Shown: positions 19,602 to 32,989 of the stretch, piece after piece
Layout of the letters: the number at the start of each line of letters is the position of its first letter
Numbering within the stretch: the first letter of the stretch is position 1
NCBI RefSeq assembly: GCF_003999195.1
Contig: NZ_RJVR01000179.1
Span: 1 to 64,000 of the forward strand
Length of the DNA: 64,000 bases
Direction: 5' to 3'
Origin: Streptomyces soli
GTDB taxonomy: Bacteria > Actinomycetota > Actinomycetes > Streptomycetales > Streptomycetaceae
Made by a program: the position numbers and the translations under genes
Notes under the pieces: model-generated
The model's database searches: none
What the model saw: only the letters and a program-made list of their open reading frames with translations
What the model was told of the DNA's origin: nothing

Positions 19602-20984
19602 TCAGCCGGTGTAGGCCGCGAAGGTGCGGGTGAAGTCCCAGGCGGCCTGGGAGACGCCGGAGCAGGTGTCGTCGTTGGGGTAGGCGCCGGAGCAGGGGCG
19701 GTCGCGGTTGGCGGACCAGAAGGTCAGGCGGGCGAGGTGGTGGGTCTGGGCGTAGCTCAGGATGGTGCGGAAGTCAGCGACGGTGACGGTCTCGTTGGCG
19801 TCGGTGATGCCGTTCATCGAGGAGATGCCGCTGTGGCGGTATGCCGTGTCGTCGGTGTAGCCGTAGGCGCTCTTGAGGGCGTTCTTCAGGCCGTCGGTGG
19901 CCTGCATGGTGAGGTTGCCCATGTTCTGGCCGGCGGCGCCGAAGTCGAACGGCATGATGGTCCAGCTGTCGACGGTGAGCCCGGAGGCGGCGGCCTTGTT
20001 GATCAGGCTGGTGTCGGGACCGGTCGTGCCGGTGCCGATGGTGACGTACTCGACGATGCCCGGGTTGTTGGTCTTGATGATCTTGAGGGCGTCGACGGTG
20101 CGCTGCTGGACGGTGGAGTTGCTGTAGGCGTCGGCCTCGATGTCGATGTCGATGGCCTTGAGCCCGTAGGCGTTGATGACCTGCTGGTAGGCGCCGGCGA
20201 GAGCGGAGGCGCTGGTGCAGGAGGACTCCAGCTTGTTGCCGCTGTAGCCGCCGAAGGACGGGACGACGTCGCCGCCGGCCGCCCGGATCTTGTTGATGGT
20301 GGTCTGGTCGACGCCGCCGGTCAGCGGACGGCCGCCGTCCCACTGGGGGTTGCAGGTGCCGTTGCTGAGCACGAAGGCGAGGGTGAACCACTTGACGCCG
20401 GTCGCCGACATGATGGTCGTCGGGTCCGGCGGGTTGCCCCAGCCGTTGTAGATGTACGGTGCCACGGCCTGCACCGCGTTGGTGGGCGGCGGGGTGGTGG
20501 GCGGCGTGGTGGTGCCGGTGGGCGTGGTCCACTTCTGGTTGCTGCCGCCGCTGCAGGACCAGATCTGCAGCCTGGTGCCGTTGGCGGAGGTGTTGCCGGT
20601 CGCGTCAAGACACTTGCCCGTCGCCGGGTTGACGATGTCCTTCGCGGAACTGATCGTCCACTTCTGCGCGTTGGTGCCGTTGCAGTCGTAGAGCTGGATC
20701 TTGGTGCCGTCGGCAGTGCCTGCGGAGGTGATGTCCATGCACTTGCCGAGGGCGCGCAGGGTGCCGTCGGAGCCGACGGTCCACTGCTGTGCGCCGGTGC
20801 CGTTGCAGTCGTAGAGCTGCACTGCTGTGCCGTTGGTGGTGCTCGCGCCGGCTATGTCGATGCATTTCCCGCCGATGCCGGTGATCGGTCCCGTCGGGTC
20901 GGCGGCTGAGGCCTGGGTGACGCCGAGGGCGCCGAGGGTGCCGGCGGCAAGGGCGGCGGCGACGAAGGTCGTGAGTTTTCTCAT
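19602..20984 (-). CDS. Secreted GH18 chitinase-like protein with N-terminal RICIN lectin
   Basis: 460 residues. Sec signal MRKLTTFVAAALAAGTLGAL...ASA (1-33). Residues ~38-160 form a ricin-type beta-trefoil with three QxW repeats (QQWTV, QKWTI, QKWTT). A Thr/Pro linker follows, then a GH18 TIM barrel (~residues 175-460). Its catalytic strand reads AIDIDIEAD, keeping DxDxE with the acid Glu. It should cleave chitin or related beta-1,4-GlcNAc polymers outside the cell. The start ATG 20984 overlaps the GH16 stop (TGATG), so translation is coupled. The lectin is nearly identical to that of the upstream GH16 enzyme. Confidence 0.9.
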   Translation of the reverse strand: MRKLTTFVAAALAAGTLGALGVTQASAADPTGPITGIGGKCIDIAGASTTNGTAVQLYDCNGTGAQQWTVGSDGTLRALGKCMDITSAGTADGTKIQLYDCNGTNAQKWTISSAKDIVNPATGKCLDATGNTSANGTRLQIWSCSGGSNQKWTTPTGTTTPPTTPPPTNAVQAVAPYIYNGWGNPPDPTTIMSATGVKWFTLAFVLSNGTCNPQWDGGRPLTGGVDQTTINKIRAAGGDVVPSFGGYSGNKLESSCTSASALAGAYQQVINAYGLKAIDIDIEADAYSNSTVQQRTVDALKIIKTNNPGIVEYVTIGTGTTGPDTSLINKAAASGLTVDSWTIMPFDFGAAGQNMGNLTMQATDGLKNALKSAYGYTDDTAYRHSGISSMNGITDANETVTVADFRTILSYAQTHHLARLTFWSANRDRPCSGAYPNDDTCSGVSQAAWDFTRTFAAYTG

Positions 20985-22252
20985 CAGCCGGTCACGGTCC
21001 ATTTCTGATTGGCGCCGCCGGTGCAGGTCCAGATCTGGAGCCTGGTGCCGTTGGCGGAGCTGTTGCCGGACGCGTCAAGACACTTGTTCGCCGCCGGGTT
21101 GACGATGTCGTTCGCAGAACTGACGGTCCATTTCTGAGCGTTGGTGCCGTTGCAGTCGTAGAGCTGGACCTGACTGCCGTCTGCGGTACCTGCGGAGGTG
21201 ATGTCCATGCACTTGCCGAGGGCGCGCAGGGTGCCGTCGGAGCCGACGGTCCACTGCTGCGCGGCGGAGCCGTTGCAGTCGTAGAGCTGCACCGCTGTGC
21301 CGTTGGCGGAGTTGGCTCCGGCAACGTCGATGCACTTGCCGCCGATTCCGGTGATCGCGTGGCCGACGGCCGCGGTGTCGCTGGTGGTGACGTGCACGTA
21401 GTCGACGACCAGTTGCTGCGGGAAGGACGTGCTGCTGTCCGGGTCGCCGGGCCAGTAACCGCCGACGGCGAGGTTCAGGATGATGTAGAAGGGGTGGTCG
21501 AACACCCAGGTGTTGCCGCCCAGGTCCGCAGGGGTGCGGGTCTGGTAGACGATGCCGTCGACGGACCAGGAGATGGAGTTCGGCGACCAGTCCACCGCGA
21601 AGGTGTGGAAGGCGTCGGAGAAGCTCTGCCCGTTCGGGAGGGTGTATCCGGCGCCGATGCCGCCCGAACCGGAGTAACCGGGACCGTGGATGGTGCCGTG
21701 GATGGTGCCGGGCTCGTAGCCGACGTTCTCCATGATGTCGAGCTCACCGCTGTTGGGCCAGCCGACGGTGCCGATGTTGTTGCCGAGCATCCAGAACGCG
21801 GGCCACATGCCCTGGCCGCGCGGCAGCTTCATGCGCGACTCGAAGTGCCCGTATGCCTGGGTGAAGGTCTGCGCGGTCGACAGCCGGGAGGAGGTGTACG
21901 TGCAAGTTCCGTACCAGCACTGGTAGTTGGCCGGATTCTCCTTCTTGGCGGTGATGACCAGGTTGCCCTGCCCGTCGAGCGCGGCGTTGTTGGTGCCGCT
22001 GGTGTAGTACTCGCGCTCGTGGTTGTTGACGTTGTCACCGGTCTCGGGGCGCCACTTGGAGCTGCTGACGGCAGTGCCGGCCGTACCGTTGAAGTCGTCG
22101 GTGAACGTCGCGGTGGCGGCTGCCGGGGCGAGGTCAGGCGCGGTCGCGGCCTGCTGGGACGGGGCCTGCTGCAGCCAGCCGCAGAGCAGCAGGGTGGCGG
22201 CGGCCAGTAAAGCGAGGGGACGTATTCGTCGGGTGGGGGGTGATGCCGACAT
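20984..22252 (-). CDS. Secreted GH16 endo-beta-1,3-glucanase with C-terminal RICIN lectin
   Basis: 422 residues. Signal peptide (RRIRPLALLAAATLLLCGWL). GH16 jelly-roll domain (~residues 50-285) with catalytic ELDIMENVG; the two Glu are nucleophile and acid. GHFESRMKLPRGQGMWPAFW is typical of laminarinases. Residues ~295-422 are a ricin-type trefoil with QQWTV and QKWTV repeats. Likely hydrolyses fungal-wall beta-1,3-glucan, complementing the coupled chitinase. ATG 22252 has AAGGAG 7 nt upstream. A promoter and DasR-like palindrome lie about 120-170 bp upstream. Confidence 0.92.
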   Translation of the reverse strand: MSASPPTRRIRPLALLAAATLLLCGWLQQAPSQQAATAPDLAPAAATATFTDDFNGTAGTAVSSSKWRPETGDNVNNHEREYYTSGTNNAALDGQGNLVITAKKENPANYQCWYGTCTYTSSRLSTAQTFTQAYGHFESRMKLPRGQGMWPAFWMLGNNIGTVGWPNSGELDIMENVGYEPGTIHGTIHGPGYSGSGGIGAGYTLPNGQSFSDAFHTFAVDWSPNSISWSVDGIVYQTRTPADLGGNTWVFDHPFYIILNLAVGGYWPGDPDSSTSFPQQLVVDYVHVTTSDTAAVGHAITGIGGKCIDVAGANSANGTAVQLYDCNGSAAQQWTVGSDGTLRALGKCMDITSAGTADGSQVQLYDCNGTNAQKWTVSSANDIVNPAANKCLDASGNSSANGTRLQIWTCTGGANQKWTVTG

Positions 22253-22367
22253 GCCGGACTCCTTGGTGGGGACGTCAGAGATCAGCGAGAAGGCGTGCAC
22301 CTGACAGATGGCAGAAGACTCTGCAGGACACTCTGGGGGCTTCTCTCACGGCTTAGTTCAGGACGTG

Positions 22368-24122: not shown

Positions 24123-24887
24123 ATGGCCATCGATTACGTCAAGCGCCCGAGGCCGGTTCCGGAGGGGGCGGCCATCAGTTTGGAGAAGGTGCAGGCGGCG
24201 GCGCCGGGGTTGGTGAGCCTCTACAAGACGGCGAGGGTGTCGCTGGAGAAGTCGGGGTTGGCTGGGCAACGGGCTGCTGTCTATCTGGTCCTTGACCGGT
24301 CGGGGAGTATGCGGGGGCATTACAAGGACGGCGCGGTGCAGCATTTGGCGGAGCAGGTGCTGGGGTTGTCGGTGAACCTGGATGACGACGGCAGGGTGCC
24401 GGTGGTGTTCTTCTCGACCGAGATCGATGGGGTGGCCAGCATCGGGCTGGAGGACTACGAGGGCCGGATCAACGAGCTGCACGAGAGTTACGGCCATCTG
24501 GGGCGTACCAATTACCACCTGGCCATGCAGGCGGTCATCGACCATTACGGCGCGTCCGGCGCGACCGACCCCGCGTTTGTGGTCTTCCAGACCGACGGCG
24601 GCCCCACCTCCCGTACGGCCGCCGAGCACGTGCTGTGCACGGCTGCGCGGTTGCCGATCTTCTGGCAGTTCGTCGGCTTCGGGGACCCGGAGGACAAGCA
24701 GTTCGACTTCCTGCGGAAGCTGGACGATCTTCCGGCGCCGGCGAAGCGGGTGGTGGACAACGCGGGATTCTTCCCTGCGGGGGCGGATCCGCGGGCGGTG
24801 TCGGATGGGGAGTTGTACAAGGCGTTGATGAGCGAGTTTCCGGAGTGGCTGCGCGCCGCGCGGGCTGCGGGGGTCTTGTCCGGCTGA
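24123..24887 (+). CDS. VWA-domain protein (tellurium-resistance/TerF-like)
   Basis: 254 residues, cytoplasmic. A complete von Willebrand A domain with MIDAS motif DRSGSM (Asp58, Ser60, Ser62), the Thr of GRTNYHLAMQ and the Asp of FQTDGGPTS, so it should bind Mg2+ and a protein ligand. The N-terminal leader (VSLEKVQAAAPGLVSLYKTA) resembles TerD/TerF-linked VWA proteins, but no TerD gene is present. ATG 24123 has GGAGAG 6 nt upstream. It leads the co-directional series with the helical-repeat, HSP90 and TPR genes, although a 103-bp gap follows it. Confidence 0.87.
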   Translation: MAIDYVKRPRPVPEGAAISLEKVQAAAPGLVSLYKTARVSLEKSGLAGQRAAVYLVLDRSGSMRGHYKDGAVQHLAEQVLGLSVNLDDDGRVPVVFFSTEIDGVASIGLEDYEGRINELHESYGHLGRTNYHLAMQAVIDHYGASGATDPAFVVFQTDGGPTSRTAAEHVLCTAARLPIFWQFVGFGDPEDKQFDFLRKLDDLPAPAKRVVDNAGFFPAGADPRAVSDGELYKALMSEFPEWLRAARAAGVLSG

Positions 24888-24990
24888 GTTACGAGCGCGA
24901 CCTCACCCCGCACCTGGCGGGGGCCGGCGGGCATGATAATCAGTCTTCGGGGTGTGGTGTGTGGGTCCTGTGGGCCAGGAGGGGGTTGTT

Positions 24991-25989
24991 GTGGCATTGG
25001 TGCGTGGTGGTGTGGAGGGCGGCGGGTCGGCGTCCTGGTTGAAGCGGTGGGGGCCGCGGCCGATGGCGCGGTTGGATCCGGCGGTGGGGGATCCGGAGCT
25101 GGCGGAGTTGCGGAAGGCGGCGAAGGCGAAGGACTGGGCGGGGATGCGGGGGCGGCTGGAGGCCGTGCCCGATGGGTGGGACCGGACGTGGCTGCTGGTG
25201 CATGCGGTCAAGGTCGCGGGGATCGAGGGGTGGATACCGGAGGCGATCGCGGCGGAGCCGGAGTCGGCGCTCGCGGTGCTGACGTCGGGCGCGCGGCAGA
25301 TCGAGTGGGCGTGGGAGGCACGTACGGGGGCGCGAGCCCAGCATGTGTCGCGGGAGCGGTTCGAGGTGTTCCACGAGCGGCTGCGGGTGGCGGAGGAGCT
25401 GCTGTACGACGTCGCCGAGCGTGAGCCGGAGTGGGTTGCGCCCTGGTACTTCCTGCAGGTCGCAGGGCGGGGGCTGCAGGTGGGGCCGGAGATCGCGCGG
25501 TTGCGCTTCGAGGCGTCCGTGCGGCGCTGCCCGGGCCATCCGGGGGCGCACCGGCAGCAGTTGCAGCAGGTGTGCCACAAGTGGGGCGGCTCGCATGAGC
25601 AGATGCACGCGTTCGCCCGGGAGTCGATGCTGAGCGCGCCCGAGGGCAGCGCGCTGGGGGAGCTGGTCGCGATCGCGCACCTGGAGCACTGGCTCGACCT
25701 GGACGAGGACGGCGCCGGCCACTCGTACATGTACCAGGACGACGTGGCGGAACAGCTGCGGGAGGCCGCGGAGCGGTCGATCTGGCACCCGGACTTCGGG
25801 CGGCCGCGCGGCTGGATCGAGACGTACAACACCTTCGCGATGGCGTTCTCGCTCGCGGGCGAGAAGAAGGCGGCGGCCGAACTCTTCGCCGCCATCGGCG
25901 GGATCGTCACACCGTTCCCGTGGCAGTACATCAACGGTGCCGACCCGACCGTGCCGTTCCGCGCCCTGCGTTCCGATGCCGGACGCTGA
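24991..25989 (+). CDS. Uncharacterised helical-repeat (TPR-like) protein
   Basis: 332 residues, no TM segment. Repeated amphipathic helices with Trp/Glu pairs (LRKAAKAKDWAGMRGRLEAV, VAEREPEWVAPWYFLQVAGR, FNTFAMAF-like ends) suggest a TPR/Sel1-like solenoid; no standard domain is recognised. GTG 24991 follows GGAGGGGG; the frame is open further upstream to 24952 but without a site. The stop lies 40 bp before the likely HSP90 start. Probably an adaptor for one of the neighbouring proteins; this is inference. Confidence 0.72.
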   Translation: MALVRGGVEGGGSASWLKRWGPRPMARLDPAVGDPELAELRKAAKAKDWAGMRGRLEAVPDGWDRTWLLVHAVKVAGIEGWIPEAIAAEPESALAVLTSGARQIEWAWEARTGARAQHVSRERFEVFHERLRVAEELLYDVAEREPEWVAPWYFLQVAGRGLQVGPEIARLRFEASVRRCPGHPGAHRQQLQQVCHKWGGSHEQMHAFARESMLSAPEGSALGELVAIAHLEHWLDLDEDGAGHSYMYQDDVAEQLREAAERSIWHPDFGRPRGWIETYNTFAMAFSLAGEKKAAAELFAAIGGIVTPFPWQYINGADPTVPFRALRSDAGR

Positions 25990-26029
25990 GTCCGCCGCCG
26001 CCCCGCCACTGACCGAAAAGGCCCCTCAG

Positions 26030-27853
26030 GTGTCCCAGCCCCAAACAGCTCACACATTCCAGGTCGACCTGCGCGGCCTGGTGGACCTGCTGTCCCATCA
26101 CCTCTACTCCAGCCCCCGCGTCTACCTGCGCGAGCTGCTGCAGAACGCCGTGGACGCGATCACCGCCCGGCAGGCCGTACAGCCCGGCGCCCCGGCCCGG
26201 ATCACCGTACGCACCGGCGACTCGCTCACCGTCACCGACAGCGGCATCGGCCTGAGCGAGGCCGACGTACACAGCTTCCTGGCCACCATCGGACGCAGCT
26301 CCAAGCGCGCCGCCGAGGGCGAACTCGAGGCGGCCCGTGGGGACTTCATCGGGCAGTTCGGGATCGGGCTGCTCGCCTGCTTCGTCGTGGCCGACGAGAT
26401 CACCGTCATCAGCCGGCACGCGATCACCCCCGGGGCTCCGGCCGTGGAGTGGCGCGGCCGCTCCGACGGCAGCTACACCATCCGTACGCTGCCGCCCGAA
26501 GCCATGCCCGAGCCGGGCACCACCGTGACGCTGACACCGCGCGCCGACGGCACCCAGTGGACCCGCCCCGACCAGGTGACCGCGCTCGCCAGGCACTACG
26601 GCGGACTGCTGCGGCACGAGGTCACCGTCGTCGACCCACAGGGCACCAGCACGCGGATCAACGACACGCCGCCGTGGGAGCAGGCCCACGGCTCGCCGCT
26701 GGCGCGCCGGGAGGCGCTGGCCGAGCACTGCCGTACGACCTTCGGCTTCACGCCGCTGGACACCATCGACCTCGATCTGCCGGTCGCGGGTCTGCGCGGG
26801 GTCGCGTACGTACTGCCGACGGCCGTCAGCCCGTCGGAGCGGGCGGGGCACCGCGTACACCTCAAGGGCATGCTGCTGTCCGATCAGGCGACGGAACTGC
26901 TGCCCGACTGGGCGTTCTTCGTACGCTGCGTCGTGGACTCGACCAGCCTGCGCCCGACGGCCTCGCGCGAGGCGCTGTACGAGGACGAGACGCTGGCCGC
27001 GATCCGCGACGCCCTCGGCGTGCGCATCCGCGACTGGCTCACCGGGCTGGCCGCCAGCGACCCGGCCCTGCTGCACCGGTTCATCGACAGCCACCACCTG
27101 GCCGTCAAGGCGCTGGCCCGGTACGACGACGAGCTGCTGCGGATGCTGCTGCCCTGGCTGCCGTTCGAGACCACCGACGGGAATGTGACGCTGGAGGAGT
27201 TCGCCCGGACCCACCGCACGGTCCTGGTCACCCGCAGCGTCGAGGAGTTCCGCCAGGTCGCGCCCATCGCGGCGGCCGCCGGCCTGGGCGTCGTGAACGG
27301 CGGCTACACCTACGACCGGGACCTGGTGCACCGGCTCCCCGAGATCCGGCCCGGCACCACCGTCACCGACCTGGACCCGGCCACGGTCACCGCGCACCTG
27401 GACTCGGTCGACACGTCCGCCGAACTCGCGGCCGCCGCCTTCCTCAGCATCGCGCGCGAGACGATCGGCGCGTACGAGTGCGACGTCGTCCTGCGCAGCT
27501 TCCAGCCCGTGACTGCGCCCGCGCTGCTGCTGGACAACCGCGAGGCCCGCCACGAGCGGACCCGGGCCGGCCTGGCCGAGAGCAGCGACGGGCTGTGGGC
27601 CGACATCCTCGGCTCCCTGCGGTCCGAGACGCCCCGCGCCCAACTGGTGCTCAACCACCTCAACCCGCTGGTGCGCCGCGCCGCCACGATCACCGAACGC
27701 GGACTGGCCGTCACCACCGCCGAGGCGCTGTACGGGCAGGCCCTGCTGCTCACCCGCCGCCCGCTGCGGGCCGCCGAGAGCGCGCTGCTCAACCGGGCCT
27801 TCATCGGCCTCCTCACCCACGCCATGCACGACCAGGAAAAAGGGGAGCTGTGA
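26030..27853 (+). CDS. HSP90-family chaperone ATPase
   Basis: 607 residues. The GHKL ATP site is complete: RELLQNAVDA (Glu35 catalytic, Asn39 Mg2+), VTDSGIGLS, GQFGIGLLACFVV. The middle domain has the conserved Arg of LRPTASREALYEDE that contacts the gamma phosphate. The C-terminal third is divergent and ends without MEEVD. It is related to, but clearly distinct from, housekeeping HtpG. GTG 26030 (VSQPQTAHTFQVDLRGLVDL) has AAAAGG upstream and matches family starts; the longer frame to 25937 overlaps the previous gene. The stop overlaps the TPR gene (TGATG), so the two proteins are made together. Confidence 0.9.
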   Translation: MSQPQTAHTFQVDLRGLVDLLSHHLYSSPRVYLRELLQNAVDAITARQAVQPGAPARITVRTGDSLTVTDSGIGLSEADVHSFLATIGRSSKRAAEGELEAARGDFIGQFGIGLLACFVVADEITVISRHAITPGAPAVEWRGRSDGSYTIRTLPPEAMPEPGTTVTLTPRADGTQWTRPDQVTALARHYGGLLRHEVTVVDPQGTSTRINDTPPWEQAHGSPLARREALAEHCRTTFGFTPLDTIDLDLPVAGLRGVAYVLPTAVSPSERAGHRVHLKGMLLSDQATELLPDWAFFVRCVVDSTSLRPTASREALYEDETLAAIRDALGVRIRDWLTGLAASDPALLHRFIDSHHLAVKALARYDDELLRMLLPWLPFETTDGNVTLEEFARTHRTVLVTRSVEEFRQVAPIAAAAGLGVVNGGYTYDRDLVHRLPEIRPGTTVTDLDPATVTAHLDSVDTSAELAAAAFLSIARETIGAYECDVVLRSFQPVTAPALLLDNREARHERTRAGLAESSDGLWADILGSLRSETPRAQLVLNHLNPLVRRAATITERGLAVTTAEALYGQALLLTRRPLRAAESALLNRAFIGLLTHAMHDQEKGEL

Positions 27854-30801
27854 TGCTGGACACCCCGGAAGCCGTTTTCGAGGCGCTGCGCGAGAACCAC
27901 GAGCGGCCGTACGGACTGCCGCGCACCGTGACCGCCGAGGAACTGGTTGAGGCGGCAGAGCAGTTCGAGGCGCCGGATGCCCTGGTGACCGCGCTGCTGG
28001 AGCTGATGGAGGCGTACGAGTACACCGGCGAGCACCGCAAGTCGCCGGTGGTCTTCGCCCGCATTCTGCAGGTGTGGGACAGCAAACCCGAGGCCTTCAG
28101 TGAATGGGAGTCCCGGCAGGTCTTCTGGCGCTTCAAGTGGGTCACGACCTCGCTGCTCCAGGTGCCCGACATCCCGCTGACCGCGATCCAGCGCTGGACC
28201 GACCAGATGCGGGACCGCTACCGCGACGCCGGGCACGGCATGCAGCCGGTGGCCGCCATGCGCCACCGGGTCGCCGCCCACACCGGATCCGGCGACTTCG
28301 CCGCCTACGACCTGTGGGTGACCCGGCCGCGCGACGCCATGAGCGACTGCAAGGCCTGCGAGATCCGGCACCGGGCACTGCACCACCTCCGGGCCGGCGA
28401 CGATGGGCGTGCGCTGGACGTCTGGCGCCCGGTCCTCGACGGCGGGGAGGGCTGCTCGGAGGAGCCGTACGTGAGCCAGGCCTTCGCGCTGGCGCCGCTG
28501 CTGCGGCTCGGCCGCACCGACGAGGCCCGCTCGCACCACCTGGTGGGCTACCGCTTCGCCCGGGGCAAGGCCGGGATGGCCGAAGAGGTAGGTCTGCACC
28601 TCGAGTTCTGCGCCCTGTCCCGTAACGAGGGGCGGGGGCTGGAGATCCTCGCCGAGAATCGGCCGCTGTTCGACGTGACCGGTGCCCCGCTCTCGCTCCT
28701 CGGCTTCCTCGGCGGCGTCCAGGTGTTGCTGAGCCGCCTGGTCGAGGACGGTTACGCCACGACCGCCGTTGCCGGACCGCTCGGCCGGAACTGGACCGCC
28801 GAGACCCTGCTCGCCCGGGTCGGCGCCGACGCGGCGGCCCTGGCGGCGGCCTTCGACGCCCGCAACGGCACCCCGGCCGTCGGCGACCGTCTCCGCGAGC
28901 GGCTGGCCCAGCGGCCGTTGCTCGCCGAGCCTCTGCCGCTCGGCCTGCGCACGGCGCCGGTGGCCGGGACGGTGGCTCCGGCGGTCCCGGCGGCTCATCC
29001 GGCGGCTCCCCCGGACATCACGGAGGACTTCGCCGAGCTCGTGGCTCAGGCCCGGCAGCAGTCGGACGGCGGCCACCCCGGCGCCTCCGCGCTGTGGGCG
29101 CGGATCGCCGAACGCGTGGCCGCCGACGACCACGTACACGATCCCGAAGTGGGCCCGGAGGGCGGACTGCGGGCCGACCTGGCCAAGCAGCGGGCCTTCA
29201 CCGCGTACGAGGCGGACCGGGTGGAGGACGGCAACGCGGCCATGACGGAAGCGGCCGAGCTCTACGAACAGGCCGGCCTGCCCTGGCACGTGCTTGTCGC
29301 CCGGGCCCGTATCGCCTCGGTCTCCCTGCAGTTCGGGGTGGAAGCCGCCACCCTCGCCGTCGGCGACCCCGGCACGTGGTCCGAGCTGGACGCGGTGCTG
29401 CGCGAGGCGGAGGAGCTGCTGGCAGCCACCGAGGAGGCGGGGGCCGACGAGGCCGCCGAGGCGCACCGGAAATACCTCACGGTGCTGCAGTGCCGGGCCT
29501 TCGCCGCGCGTGCCGAAGCCGTAGCGGAACTGCCCGAGATATCCGCGGCGGCGCGAGAGAGGTTCGATGCCCTGACCGCGGCCGTGCTGTCCGAGGCGGC
29601 CCGGCTCGACGTCCCCCAGCAGGCCGCCACCGCACACACGTACATCGCCGATCTCGCCGCCCGCATCGGCGACCTCGAGGAGGCGGAGGCGGAACTGCGC
29701 GCCGCCCTCGACATCATTGAGGCCGACGACACACCGTGGCGGGCCCAGCGGGCCGAAGCACTGCTGGGCCAGGTCCTGATGCAGCAGCACCGCAGCGAGG
29801 AGGCCGTCGAGTACCTGCGCCAGGCGATGGCCCGGGCCGCCCGGTACGGCGACGCCCACTTCCCCGTCGCCCGCACCCACGCGCTGCTCGGCCACGCCTC
29901 CTCCCACACCGACGATCTGGCGGGCGCCGTCCGCCACCTGTCCGAGGCGGCCGCCTGCTTCGACAGGGAGGCAAACGACAACGGCGCCGCTGAGATCCGC
30001 CTCGAACTCGCCGACGTCCTCGGCCGTTCCGGGCAGCAGGCCGACGCCGTGGCCGTGCTCGAATCTTTGGTCATGGACGACGCCGCCTCGTCGGTCGACG
30101 AGCGGCTCGTCGCCCAGGCCCGGCTCAACCTTGCCCGCGGCCTGCGCGAGTTGGACGAACACCGGGCCTCCGCCGAGCAGTTCCTGCTGCTCGCCGACGC
30201 CTCCGCCGACTGGGACGAGCAGTTCACCCACACCCTCGCCGCCGCCGAAGCCGCCGTCGCCCTGGCCCGTACGGACCGCTGGGACGCGGCCCGCACTGCG
30301 TACGACCGTGCTGTCGCCTCGCACACCAAGGCCCCCAACCCCGGCCCCGTCGGCGAGATGATGCGCCAGTTCGCGGCCCTCGTCATCGCCAACGACGGCC
30401 TCGACGGCCTCGACACCGCCCTCGGCCACCTCTCCGAGGCCGACGAGGTGCTCGCCGCCGTCCCCGAGGACGAGGAGGGCTTCGCCCACTGGTACGAGGC
30501 CGGTTCCACGCACTACCAGCGTGCCCGCGCCCTCGCCGCCGCCGAACGCTTCCCCGACGCTCTCGCCGAGATGGAACGCGCCATCGCCGCCCACGACCAA
30601 GGCGGCCCCCAAGGCGAATCCCCCCGCGCCGAAGCAGTCCGCGTCGCCGCCCTCATCGAAGCCAACGGCCTCGACTCCCCCCAAGCCGCCACCGCCCGCC
30701 TCACCCCCGCCATCCGCCGCTGCGAAGCCGCCGGCCTCCAGCACGCCGCGCGGATCCTCGTGAAGCTCCGGGCCGAGCTTGCTTCGCGTAACGCGGGGTG
30801 A
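27853..30801 (+). CDS. Large tetratricopeptide-repeat protein
   Basis: 982 residues, soluble. The N-terminal ~370 residues are helical and partly unique (PEAVFEALRENHERPYGLP). After an Ala/Pro linker the C-terminal ~600 residues are TPR-like helix pairs, for example AEAELRAALDIIEADDTPWR, EEAVEYLRQAMARAARYGDA and AGAVRHLSEAAACFDREAND. TPR proteins are the classical partners of HSP90, and this gene is translationally coupled to the HSP90 gene by TGATG with GGGGAG upstream. I infer a dedicated co-chaperone or client-recruiting scaffold. The apparent frame continues upstream to 26449 only as a shadow of the HSP90 gene. Confidence 0.85.
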   Translation: MLDTPEAVFEALRENHERPYGLPRTVTAEELVEAAEQFEAPDALVTALLELMEAYEYTGEHRKSPVVFARILQVWDSKPEAFSEWESRQVFWRFKWVTTSLLQVPDIPLTAIQRWTDQMRDRYRDAGHGMQPVAAMRHRVAAHTGSGDFAAYDLWVTRPRDAMSDCKACEIRHRALHHLRAGDDGRALDVWRPVLDGGEGCSEEPYVSQAFALAPLLRLGRTDEARSHHLVGYRFARGKAGMAEEVGLHLEFCALSRNEGRGLEILAENRPLFDVTGAPLSLLGFLGGVQVLLSRLVEDGYATTAVAGPLGRNWTAETLLARVGADAAALAAAFDARNGTPAVGDRLRERLAQRPLLAEPLPLGLRTAPVAGTVAPAVPAAHPAAPPDITEDFAELVAQARQQSDGGHPGASALWARIAERVAADDHVHDPEVGPEGGLRADLAKQRAFTAYEADRVEDGNAAMTEAAELYEQAGLPWHVLVARARIASVSLQFGVEAATLAVGDPGTWSELDAVLREAEELLAATEEAGADEAAEAHRKYLTVLQCRAFAARAEAVAELPEISAAARERFDALTAAVLSEAARLDVPQQAATAHTYIADLAARIGDLEEAEAELRAALDIIEADDTPWRAQRAEALLGQVLMQQHRSEEAVEYLRQAMARAARYGDAHFPVARTHALLGHASSHTDDLAGAVRHLSEAAACFDREANDNGAAEIRLELADVLGRSGQQADAVAVLESLVMDDAASSVDERLVAQARLNLARGLRELDEHRASAEQFLLLADASADWDEQFTHTLAAAEAAVALARTDRWDAARTAYDRAVASHTKAPNPGPVGEMMRQFAALVIANDGLDGLDTALGHLSEADEVLAAVPEDEEGFAHWYEAGSTHYQRARALAAAERFPDALAEMERAIAAHDQGGPQGESPRAEAVRVAALIEANGLDSPQAATARLTPAIRRCEAAGLQHAARILVKLRAELASRNAG

Positions 30802-30813
30802 TCCGCATGCCGC

Positions 30814-30852
30814 GGGTCCCCGCGCACCGTGCCTGCCGGTGCGCGGGGACCC
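30814..30852. terminator. Terminator between the TPR and protease genes
   Basis: A 15-bp perfect stem GGGTCCCCGCGCACC / GGTGCGCGGGGACCC with a 9-nt loop lies 12 bp after the TPR stop and before the convergent protease end, so it can serve both. Confidence 0.85.
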
Positions 30853-30891: not shown

Positions 30892-32688
30892 TCAGCCGAA
30901 GATGCCGTACTGCTGCCAGCCCGTGCCGATCGTGATGCGACTGCCGAAGATGTCCGATGTGGCTTTTCCTGTGCCCGGGTACAGGTACAGGGTGCCGCCC
31001 GGCGTGCGGGTGACGAAGTCGGCCTTGCCGTCGCCGGTGATGTCGCCCACCGCGTCGAACGCGTTGTAGCCGGACCAGGTGCGGACGTGGATACGGCTGG
31101 AGAACGCCCCGGAACCAGCCTTGCCCGTGCCCTTGTAGAGGTACATGTACGAGTTGCTGCTCTTGCGGACGATCAGGTCGGCCTTGCCGTCACCCGTGAA
31201 GTCGCCGTGGGCGCTGAAGGAGTTGTACTGGTTCCAGCCCGTGCCGACCTCGATGCGAGCCGAGAAGGTGCCGTTGCCCTTGCCCGGGTAGATCCACAAC
31301 ACGCCGCCGGAGTCCACCGAGAGCAGGTCGGGGATTGCGTCACCGGTCACGTCGCCGGGTGCGGCGATGCGGGTGCGGGTCTTCCAGTTGGAGAAGATCT
31401 GCGTCCAGGTGAAGGTATTGCTGGAGGGGACGTAGTGCCCCCACAGGATGGCCCCGTCGGAACTGCGGCGTACCACGAAGTCCTGGTAGTCGTCCCGGTT
31501 GAGGTCCGCCTGCAGGATGACGTTCAGACCGCTCCACTTACCGAGGGACTGGCGGGCGGCGAAGGACGTGCCCTTGGAGTCGTACTCGTAGCCCGTGCCG
31601 TCCGAGCTGCGCCGTACGAACAGGTCGGCCTTGCTGTCGGCGCTGAGGTTCGTGTCGTCGATCCGGGGTTCGGTCGCACCGACATAGGTGCTCACCTTGG
31701 TGAACACGCTGTACGCGCCGGAGGAGACACAGTCCTGGACACCCCAGGAGACCACGCCCACGATCTTCCCGCCGACGACCAGCGGACCGCCGGAGTCGCC
31801 GTTGCACGGCGTCACGGTGCCGGTGTCCGAGCCGGTGGCCGGATGGCCCGCGCAGACCATGTCACCGGCGATGAAGTCACTGCCGAAGTAACTGCCGCAG
31901 GTGGTGTTGGAGTTGATCGGCAGCGTCGCCGACTGCAGGGTCTGCGAGATGTCCTGACTGGTGGAGCTGGTGCGGCCCCAGCCGTAGACGGTGGCCGTGG
32001 TGCCGGCCGTGTACGACGCGGTGTCATTTGAGGTGGTGAGCTTGAGCGGCTTCGCGGTGACCGGGCTCGCCAGCGTCAGGACCGCGATGTCGTTGGCGAC
32101 GGTGGTCGCGTTGAAGGACGAATGGTTCCACTGCCGCCACACGCCACTGACGGTGCCGCCGTGCAGGTTGGTGGTGCCGTCCGAGTTTGTCGTCGGCAGC
32201 TGGTCGGTGCCGGTCACGACGGCCCCGTATGTCTTCCAGTTGGCGCCCTTGACGCAGTGCGCGGCGGTGAGGATCTTCGTGGGCGACACCACGGTGCCGC
32301 CGCAGAAGAAGCCGACGTCGTCGCTCGTGTCGGTCGTGCCCTTGTCGTCGTAGTACCAGAGCTGCGCCATCCACGGAGCCGTGGAGATGGAGGTGTCGGT
32401 ACCGCCGATGACGTTCGGATTTGTGCTGTTCGCCGACATCGATGTGCTCGCGGACCCGGCCGTCTGCGGGTCGGTCTTCAGCGCGCCGTCGATACGGGCC
32501 GTCAGCTGCGCCTGCGAGGGGGCGCTGACGCTTGCGGTATTGCCGGGAGCCGGAAGCGGCGCCGGCGAGGCGTTGGCAGAGGTGGTCAGAAACGCGCCGA
32601 TGACACCAACGGCCAGCGTGGTGGCGGCGGCAGGGATGGCTATGCGCATCCGTCTGCCGTGCCTGCCACGATTTTTGGCAGAGAACAC
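30892..32688 (-). CDS. Secreted trypsin-like protease with FG-GAP repeats
   Basis: 598 residues. GTG 32688 has AAGGAG 7 nt upstream; the later ATG 32649 has none. A basic stretch and a Sec signal (MRIAIPAAATTLAVGVIGAF) are followed by a propeptide of ~60 residues; mature trypsin should begin at Val93 (VIGGTDTS). The S1 triad is His144 (TAAHC), Asp200 (NDIAVL) and Ser299 (CNGDSGGPL). Residues ~340-598 hold FG-GAP/VCBS-type repeats (GDVTGDAIPDLLSV, GDFTGDGKADLIVR, GDITGDGKADFVTR) with Ca2+-binding DxxGDGxxD loops, forming a propeller for substrate or surface binding. Confidence 0.92.
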   Translation of the reverse strand: MFSAKNRGRHGRRMRIAIPAAATTLAVGVIGAFLTTSANASPAPLPAPGNTASVSAPSQAQLTARIDGALKTDPQTAGSASTSMSANSTNPNVIGGTDTSISTAPWMAQLWYYDDKGTTDTSDDVGFFCGGTVVSPTKILTAAHCVKGANWKTYGAVVTGTDQLPTTNSDGTTNLHGGTVSGVWRQWNHSSFNATTVANDIAVLTLASPVTAKPLKLTTSNDTASYTAGTTATVYGWGRTSSTSQDISQTLQSATLPINSNTTCGSYFGSDFIAGDMVCAGHPATGSDTGTVTPCNGDSGGPLVVGGKIVGVVSWGVQDCVSSGAYSVFTKVSTYVGATEPRIDDTNLSADSKADLFVRRSSDGTGYEYDSKGTSFAARQSLGKWSGLNVILQADLNRDDYQDFVVRRSSDGAILWGHYVPSSNTFTWTQIFSNWKTRTRIAAPGDVTGDAIPDLLSVDSGGVLWIYPGKGNGTFSARIEVGTGWNQYNSFSAHGDFTGDGKADLIVRKSSNSYMYLYKGTGKAGSGAFSSRIHVRTWSGYNAFDAVGDITGDGKADFVTRTPGGTLYLYPGTGKATSDIFGSRITIGTGWQQYGIFG

Positions 32689-32960
32689 TCGGGTCTCCTT
32701 GCAATGAAAGAACGAAGTCGCGCGGAGACGGGGAGCAGTGCTCGTTCGAAGGCAGGACACAGCGTCATCCATACGTCGCGGACGGAAGGCCGGTGCCCGA
32801 AAGTGCGTTCCCCCCACCTGCGGCTGGCCGATCCTATGAACGCCTCGGAGAATTCCACTAGTGAACTGATGGCAAGCACGGAAAAAATTTGGCAAAATCA
32901 AGGGATGTCGCGTGCCTTTCCGGAGCCGCGCGCCAATGGCGGAGGCGTTCTCGGGGGCTA
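32689..32960. other. Upstream region of the protease gene
   Basis: No gene. On the minus strand TAGGAT (32836-32831) is a good Streptomyces -10 and would give a ~135-nt leader. An A/T-rich patch (32880-32905) lies further upstream. No operator is obvious. Confidence 0.4.
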
Positions 32961-32989
32961 GGGACAGCACGCCGGTCTCGGTCTAGGCT
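32961..32989 (+). promoter_or_regulatory. Leaderless promoter of the LLM oxidoreductase
   Basis: GGGACA (32961-32966), 17-nt spacer, TAGGCT (32984-32989). The -10 ends 7 nt before ATG 32996 and there is no Shine-Dalgarno, so transcription should begin at the start codon. Confidence 0.6.

Follow-up and report, generated by a model that had tools for sequence, protein, structure and literature searches.

An HSP90 family protein of Streptomyces soli forms a conserved gene pair with a tetratricopeptide repeat protein, a candidate bacterial co-chaperone

The window analysed here is a stretch of 64,000 nucleotides from Streptomyces soli (contig NZ_RJVR01000179.1, positions 1-64,000), in which a sequence-only reading had singled out four co-directional genes at 24123-30801 as a possible dedicated chaperone system. 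The positions of these genes were confirmed, and all four lie on the + strand. The first (24123-24887) encodes a protein of 254 residues with a von Willebrand factor A (VWA) domain, as had been proposed, matching PF10138 (vWA-TerF-like) with 225.6 bits. After a gap of 103 bases, which the sequence bears out, follows the gene that we call HEL (24991-25989), which codes for a tetratricopeptide repeat (TPR)-like solenoid protein of 332 residues and belongs to the cassette, as its third component, in some members of the family only. The HSP90 gene (25937/26030-27853) encodes an HSP90-like ATPase of the group referred to below as the partner-A group; it has two candidate starts, an ATG at 25976, which overlaps the HEL gene by 14 bases, or a GTG at 26030, which leaves a gap of 40 bases. 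Its stop codon overlaps the start of the TPR partner gene (27853-30801; 982 residues) in the sequence TGATG (27851-27855), so that both the coupling of the two genes and the length of the TPR protein are as previously read. Residues 1-360 of the partner, here termed TPR-N (27853-28932), constitute the part that is conserved across phyla according to profile matches and alignment, and contain the codons for C166-x-x-C169 (28348-28359) of a D-C-x-A-C-E motif. With C201 (28453-28455), these cysteines are a candidate site for metal binding or redox chemistry. A hairpin of 16 bp located 3' of the TPR gene (30814-30852, + strand; -43.3 kcal/mol, z -5.8) is a candidate terminator, although it has no T run. 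A search of Rfam gave no match at the gathering score.

The conservation of this arrangement was evaluated in an even draw of 150 genomes of the window's family, the less biased of our sets. All 105 HSP90 genes scoring over the cut-off of NCBIfam model NF010683, the window gene counted among them, are directly followed by a TPR-N domain (105/105) and, conversely, such an HSP90 gene immediately precedes 105 of the 110 TPR-N domains. Because the order holds in every one of these genes, it is more than chance. The pair's HSP90 is present in 94 of the 150 genomes. Two of the five exceptional TPR-N domains are accompanied by an incomplete HSP90, namely a fragment at a contig end (G135) and a gene with its middle missing (G138). 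The latter, on contig C353 (locus L187), is situated between a HEL and a TPR gene, and its deletion is either real or an assembly artefact.

A second set, consisting of the best 80 of at least 530 HSP90 relatives in named genomes and therefore biased to close relatives, gives the same picture. Directly upstream lies the HEL gene, in 79 of these loci according to gene calls and in all 80 according to tblastn, which also detects the TPR gene downstream in 80/80. Of the TPR genes as called, 73 fall into one cluster; six others were called short on contigs that are themselves short, and that of L066 is fragmented. The distance from the HSP90 stop to the called TPR start is at most 10 bases in 78 of the 80 loci, and the next commonest neighbour cluster occurs in only 16, at scattered positions.

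The pair is not confined to the family. In a sample of the class (296 genomes), TPR-N was found at 19 places outside the family with at least 150 bits, after two matches at 21.9 bits had been dropped, and an HSP90 gene lies directly upstream in 16 of the 19 (14/17 plus G377 and G398); the three TPR-N domains without HSP90 are the lowest scorers. In a sample of the phylum, NF010683 was matched over its cut-off in 11 of 346 genomes, three of which are outside the family (G377, G398 and G466), and the HSP90s of G377 and G398 have a TPR-N partner. The gene next to the HSP90 gene of G466 encodes 240 residues and weakly matches the C-terminal TPR profile.

In Listeria (L181:6806-9616), two partners of 324 and 320 residues stand in tandem behind HSP90 and adjoin a gene of the SMI1/KNR4 family; in Paenibacillus HSP90 is followed by one partner of 353 residues, the longest open reading frames overlapping by 4 bases. 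A 6.6-kb gut contig deposited as phage from faeces carries HSP90 and then a partner of about 900 residues. Among viral contigs, ten stretches fit a pattern and none was confirmed. As lmo0942 of Listeria adjoins fri according to the accessible part of one report (PMC3534079), and the HSP90 gene of L181 does likewise, the two partners are taken as lmo0941 and lmo0940. For lmo0941, the portion of a second report available describes signs of selection and an unknown function (PMC6901971).

The VWA gene behaves differently. It is the single PF10138 match of its genome, and relatives are present in 106 of the 150 family genomes. We collected 83 orthologues scoring at least 300 bits from 76 other genomes, 52 of which also contain the pair; none (0/83) shares a contig with HSP90 at a distance of 50 kb or less, in genomes many of which are fragmented. 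Likewise, no VWA match turned up at 79 of the best-80 loci over the sequence inspected (up to 10 kb on each side, some contigs being shorter); L102 has a 38% VWA match on the opposite strand, about 4 kb past the TPR gene. Since the VWA gene is unlinked in relatives, the conserved set does not consist of four genes, and the VWA gene is a bystander. A machine made of VWA, HEL, HSP90 and TPR proteins, to which the shared strand and the 103-base gap in the window would lend themselves, was rejected on these grounds and is extremely improbable.

HEL takes an intermediate position. It lies directly upstream of 61 of the 105 family HSP90 genes, counting matches of at least 340 bits and one split gene, and 16 HEL genes above the same score sit away from HSP90. 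Thus the conserved neighbourhood that the sequence-only reading proposed to look for in actinobacteria exists for HSP90 and TPR, in part for HEL, and not for VWA. The nine HSP90s with HEL that were sampled for a tree of 38 HSP90s cluster as a single group; HEL was therefore probably gained once. An AlphaFold2 model of HEL is helical (predicted local distance difference test score, pLDDT, 92), and the PDB structure closest to it, a consensus TPR superhelix (E 2.8e-4), has a weak template modelling score of 0.34. By sequence, HEL has no match in the PDB, and the window protein has no Pfam family; among 45 members, TPR_14 was matched in 6 and DUF4034 in 4, both weakly. HEL and TPR-N were also considered as relatives of each other, which hhalign does not support (0.2%), and a search for HEL analogues upstream of the pair in other families covered ten genes, of which those upstream look unrelated when compared by eye over the first 70 residues. 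As a separate observation, HEL paralogues without HSP90 precede a protein of about 575 residues at several loci (G000:C16, L141:9239-11752; L142, L143, L144, L151), one such copy being present in the window's own genome. In the two of these proteins that were tested, Peptidase_M16_C scores over the cut-off (L142) or just below it (L141).

The window HSP90 is a clear member of NF010683 (832 bits, cut-off 455) and not of the HtpG model NF003555 (183.8 bits, cut-off 371). Its closest PDB match is TRAP1 (E 3.4e-32). It is the sole match to the Pfam HSP90 family (PF00183) in its genome, in which no HtpG scores over the cut-off and the two further NF010683 matches reach only 28.5 and 27 bits. The C-terminus, described earlier as divergent, is indeed so but is not foreign, as the HtpG model aligns to residues 38-611 despite its sub-threshold score. 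The ATP site is complete, as had been read: E66, N70, D101, G105 and R344 are identical in 81/81 HSP90s with HEL upstream (type I) and 13/13 family HSP90s without HEL (type II), and these catalytic residues are also invariant in three type B rows (see below) and two HtpG rows. Tyrosine occupies in all type I and type II rows the position that we take to be yeast Q384. The accessible part of Chen et al. (2006; PMC1525184) lists as markers of all HSP90s Y, REL, N, D, G, G, GQFG, G, P and SRE. In an alignment of 37 HSP90s, the corresponding residues Y57, R65-L67, N70, D73, G103, G105, G139, F141, G142, G194 and S343-E345 are invariant, Q140 is almost invariant, and P323 was taken as the listed P. 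The geldanamycin-resistant HtpG of Streptomyces hygroscopicus was considered as a possible member of this HSP90 group; for it, the changes E88G and N92L have been reported in the text available (PMC3603443). The residue aligned to E88 is D (80) or E (1) in type I and D (10) or E (3) in type II, and the one aligned to N92 is F (81) in type I and L (12) or F (1) in type II; both HtpG rows have E and L, respectively.

As for the partner, the TPR repeats were confirmed by profile, with TPR_12 matched in the window protein (E 3.5e-12) and in 36 of 38 members. Across these 38 members Pfam returned TPR models and scattered single-member matches, and no model specific to the protein. The AlphaFold2 model is helical (pLDDT 91.4), its PDB matches are generic TPR superhelices, and a PDB search with the TPR-N sequence retrieved one designed protein (E 0.0048). 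The N-terminal 350 or so residues share the pattern D-C-x-A-C-E ... C-x-x-x-P, in which D165, C166, A168, C169, E170, C201 and P205 are invariant in all 13 rows of an alignment ranging from Streptomyces to Listeria; F334-D335-x-R337 is found near the end of the domain. The Pseudomonas partner described next was left out of this alignment because it did not align. The cysteines may bind a metal.

In Pseudomonas aeruginosa and Xanthomonas, a related HSP90 is followed by a TPR-like protein of 764 or 774 residues, which we call partner B as opposed to the partner A of the window. Partner B is also encoded behind an HSP90 about 35% identical to that of the window in three family genomes, and the protein from one of these (L125) is 40% identical to that of Pseudomonas. 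The tree of 38 HSP90s resolves into three groups, each with support of 100/100: those with partner A, those with partner B, and HtpG. The surroundings of the six HtpG rows, limited to about 1.5 kb per side in four cases, contain no match to TPR-N or HEL. Comparison of the partner A and B profiles with hhalign gave a probability of 58%, with the CxxC motifs in register, and a common origin of the two partners is therefore possible.

We take PA1069 to be the Pseudomonas partner B, including the plasmid gene of L185, on a presumed gene order, and the numbers PA1068 and PA1069 are partly our own assumption as well. Elsewhere in the literature, hits for PA1068/PA1069 proved to be strain names and were discarded. 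In the accessible text of a study on efhP mutants, PA1069 is said to appear operonic with an Hsp90 gene, to be less abundant or undetected in biofilms of these mutants, and to have been found earlier as induced by calcium and/or biofilm growth (PMC4053335). This remark on PA1069 aside, the earlier statement that no bacterial operon of this composition had been characterised holds for function within the literature searched. PA1069 is further listed, in the parts of the sources available, among differential proteins of surface-adherent cells (8.6, 10.8 and 2.0, in columns whose heads were outside that part; PMC5541441), among AmrZ-bound genes with an RNA-seq fold change of 3.22 (PMC3946381), and among proteins co-precipitated with BatR (PMC13411936).

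As the window genome contains no HtpG over the cut-off, the pair could be a general stress chaperone standing in for HtpG, and lmo0942 is indeed listed among heat shock protein genes in the accessible part of one paper (PMC10393277). Within the 150 family genomes, however, 49 contain both the pair and HtpG, 45 the pair only, 24 HtpG only and 32 neither (Fisher p 0.31; p 1.0 within the window's own genus). Presence of the module is independent of HtpG, and the module does not replace it. Neither was a stress role supported by the upstream regions: for CIRCE, HAIR and RheA operators, the letters of which are as we presume them, mismatch counts in 90 upstream regions resembled those in shuffled sequence and none stood out. 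The lowest counts were 3/14, in one region each for HAIR and RheA, the shuffles stopping at 4. A scan for sigma-70 promoters gave none, against 0.2 expected, and is hardly informative for this organism. Moreover, PA1069 falls upon heat shock (-1.98 log2) while htpG rises (+2.83), as given in the accessible part of PMC4957987. A role as stress substitute for HtpG is accordingly highly unlikely in our judgment, and the module resembles a maturation machine, constitutive or condition-specific, more than it does a heat-shock unit. Separately, a type B HSP90 occurs in some genomes that have neither the pair's HSP90 nor HtpG, for instance G025 and G102.

A second alternative is that the genes form a conflict or anti-phage system, with the HSP90-like ATPase as its sensor or its switch and the TPR proteins detecting the invader or relaying the signal. 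The patchy spread within the family, the lack of conserved flanks around the three-gene cassette in the best-80 loci and the occurrence of the HEL-HSP90-TPR triad on one mobilizable Streptomyces globosus plasmid are compatible with this. An HSP90 relative from Pseudanabaena with a weak TIR-like tail, whose gene adjoins that of a TIR protein and has a TPR gene close by, points in the same direction. Against it, the two-gene copies of L113, L114, L123 and L131 are placed between FakA-like and RecG-like genes (domains checked in L113), and the unit in the window is flanked (19602-22300 and 30892-32970) by Ricin-lectin, GH16-ricin-lectin and trypsin-FG-GAP proteins, with monooxygenase, MMPL and reductase domains also among its neighbours. 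The four window proteins show only generic GHKL similarity in PADLOC (best E 2.2e-9), and Pfam detects no effector domain in them. No known anti-phage family beyond the generic ATPase was found by PADLOC for the window proteins, the HSP90s of Listeria and Pseudomonas or the Pseudomonas partner.

Genomic surroundings were compared using 101 neighbouring proteins from 15 of the best-80 loci and 101 proteins from other loci. The neighbours match 45 PADLOC families, including DpdF (one), PsyrT (one) and mad3 (five), whereas the baseline hits 39, with two matches each to mad3 and PD-T4-6; any excess is small, and DpdF and PsyrT appear only among the neighbours within the 25 PADLOC families listed per set. 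A defence function, and with it the phage role suggested earlier, is unlikely in our judgment. The Pseudanabaena relative (L196:4932-7565) has 877 residues; its TIR-like match spans 723-775 and stays under the Pfam cut-off. A PDB search retrieved no TIR, and the case for a fusion to TIR is weak. The same stretch also encodes a VWA protein and a DEAD/DEAH helicase.

The HSP90-partner module is real and conserved and, within the open-access literature, largely unstudied: our search of that literature, to which it was limited, found no study of the pair. The window is an ordinary three-gene representative of it. From linkage, near-overlapping frames and the correspondence between HSP90 group and partner type, a joint function of HSP90 and its TPR partner is likely, and a scaffold-like TPR protein beside this side-branch HSP90 in nearly all relatives inspected suggests that the chaperone has its own built-in helper in the bacterium. 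With moderate confidence we interpret the pair as an HSP90 machine whose TPR partner is its dedicated co-chaperone or adaptor, and to which part of the family added HEL. Of the dedicated machine originally envisaged, HSP90 and TPR are supported by their linkage and by an HSP90 group apart from HtpG, HEL is supported for part of the family, and VWA is not. HSP90 would run an ATP-driven clamp cycle; the partner might dock on it via the conserved N-terminal domain and hold a client along its long TPR surface, thereby conferring specificity on HSP90. The D-C-x-A-C-E ... C motif could hold a metal in a structural role or act as a redox switch, and HEL could be an extra adaptor for a client or complex.

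Several observations weigh against this interpretation. TPR-N occurs without HSP90 nearby in G044, G145 and G149, and so do the partners of L232-L234 and the type B partner of Nonomuraea (L194); Actinomyces oris (L192) and Priestia (L193) have a partner and no HSP90 within 4 kb. Conversely, the HSP90 of G466 (L180) scores over the cut-off and has no TPR-N match in 19.9 kb. Long branches occur in the tree of 38 HSP90s, and the program cautions that they may be joined falsely. Both the binding between HSP90 and TPR protein and the existence of a client are inferred, the literature searched gave no client or phenotype for the partner-A group, and the expression data stem from partner B, the homology of which to partner A is doubtful. 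The few partners without HSP90 and the one HSP90 without partner would also fit two genes that are neighbours by history and act apart. As adjacency is kept in two phyla while the flanks change, we regard such mere co-occurrence as very unlikely, and prefer an HSP90 with a co-chaperone of its own. The partner found behind HSP90 throughout the family accordingly constitutes a named candidate for a bacterial co-chaperone, with a conserved domain to probe for binding, and genomes like that of the window, in which the pair's HSP90 is the only Pfam HSP90, offer a clean genetic system.

Compared with known systems, the window HSP90 resembles HtpG in its fold by sequence, its ATP site and its catalytic Glu and Arg, and differs from it in owning a partner gene, falling in a separate tree group and scoring under the HtpG cut-off. 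The 81 type I HSP90s all have GQFGIGLL[AS] and RPTASRE, whereas the two HtpG rows have GQFGVGFYS and SLNISRE. NF010683/PRK14083, of which it is a clear member, only names an 'HSP90 family protein', the annotation of the HSP90 records of Streptomyces globosus and Listeria; the name PRK14083 was met in the accessible part of a work on HSP genes of a fish. The partner gene offers a biological reason for this NCBI family standing apart from HtpG. Chen et al. (2006; PMC1525184), as far as their text was accessible, split bacterial HTPG into Groups A, B and C, report Groups A and C from gamma-proteobacteria, Firmicutes and Actinobacteria, and count two copies in Streptomyces coelicolor. The window HSP90 has IGQFGIGLLA and RPTASRE in place of the Group A signatures IGQFGVGFY and PLN. 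It may correspond to Group C; in the main text of the paper, as accessible, 'operon' and 'TPR' occur 0 times. The Pseudomonas pair PA1068-PA1069 likewise consists of HSP90 followed by a TPR-like gene, but belongs to a different HSP90 group, and its partner is not found by the partner A model.

To our knowledge, descriptions of bacterial HSP90 usually have it act without TPR co-chaperones such as eukaryotes possess. In eukaryotes, these bind HSP90 through its C-terminal MEEVD. No EEVD was present at the end or in the last 15 residues of 101 HSP90 sequences (0/101), so that MEEVD docking was rejected; the earlier argument that TPR proteins bind HSP90, which rests on this tail, lacks support in that form. 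As in eukaryotes, the TPR protein is a presumed helper of HSP90; unlike there, it would be a genetically fixed neighbour. Tentatively, and at somewhat less than even chances, at least two HSP90 groups (A and B) may each have evolved with their own CxxC-bearing TPR partner as genetically fixed co-chaperones in Actinomycetota, Bacillota and Pseudomonadota. If so, bacteria would have an equivalent of the eukaryotic pairing of HSP90 with TPR co-chaperones, operating without the MEEVD tail and with the partner setting the choice of client.

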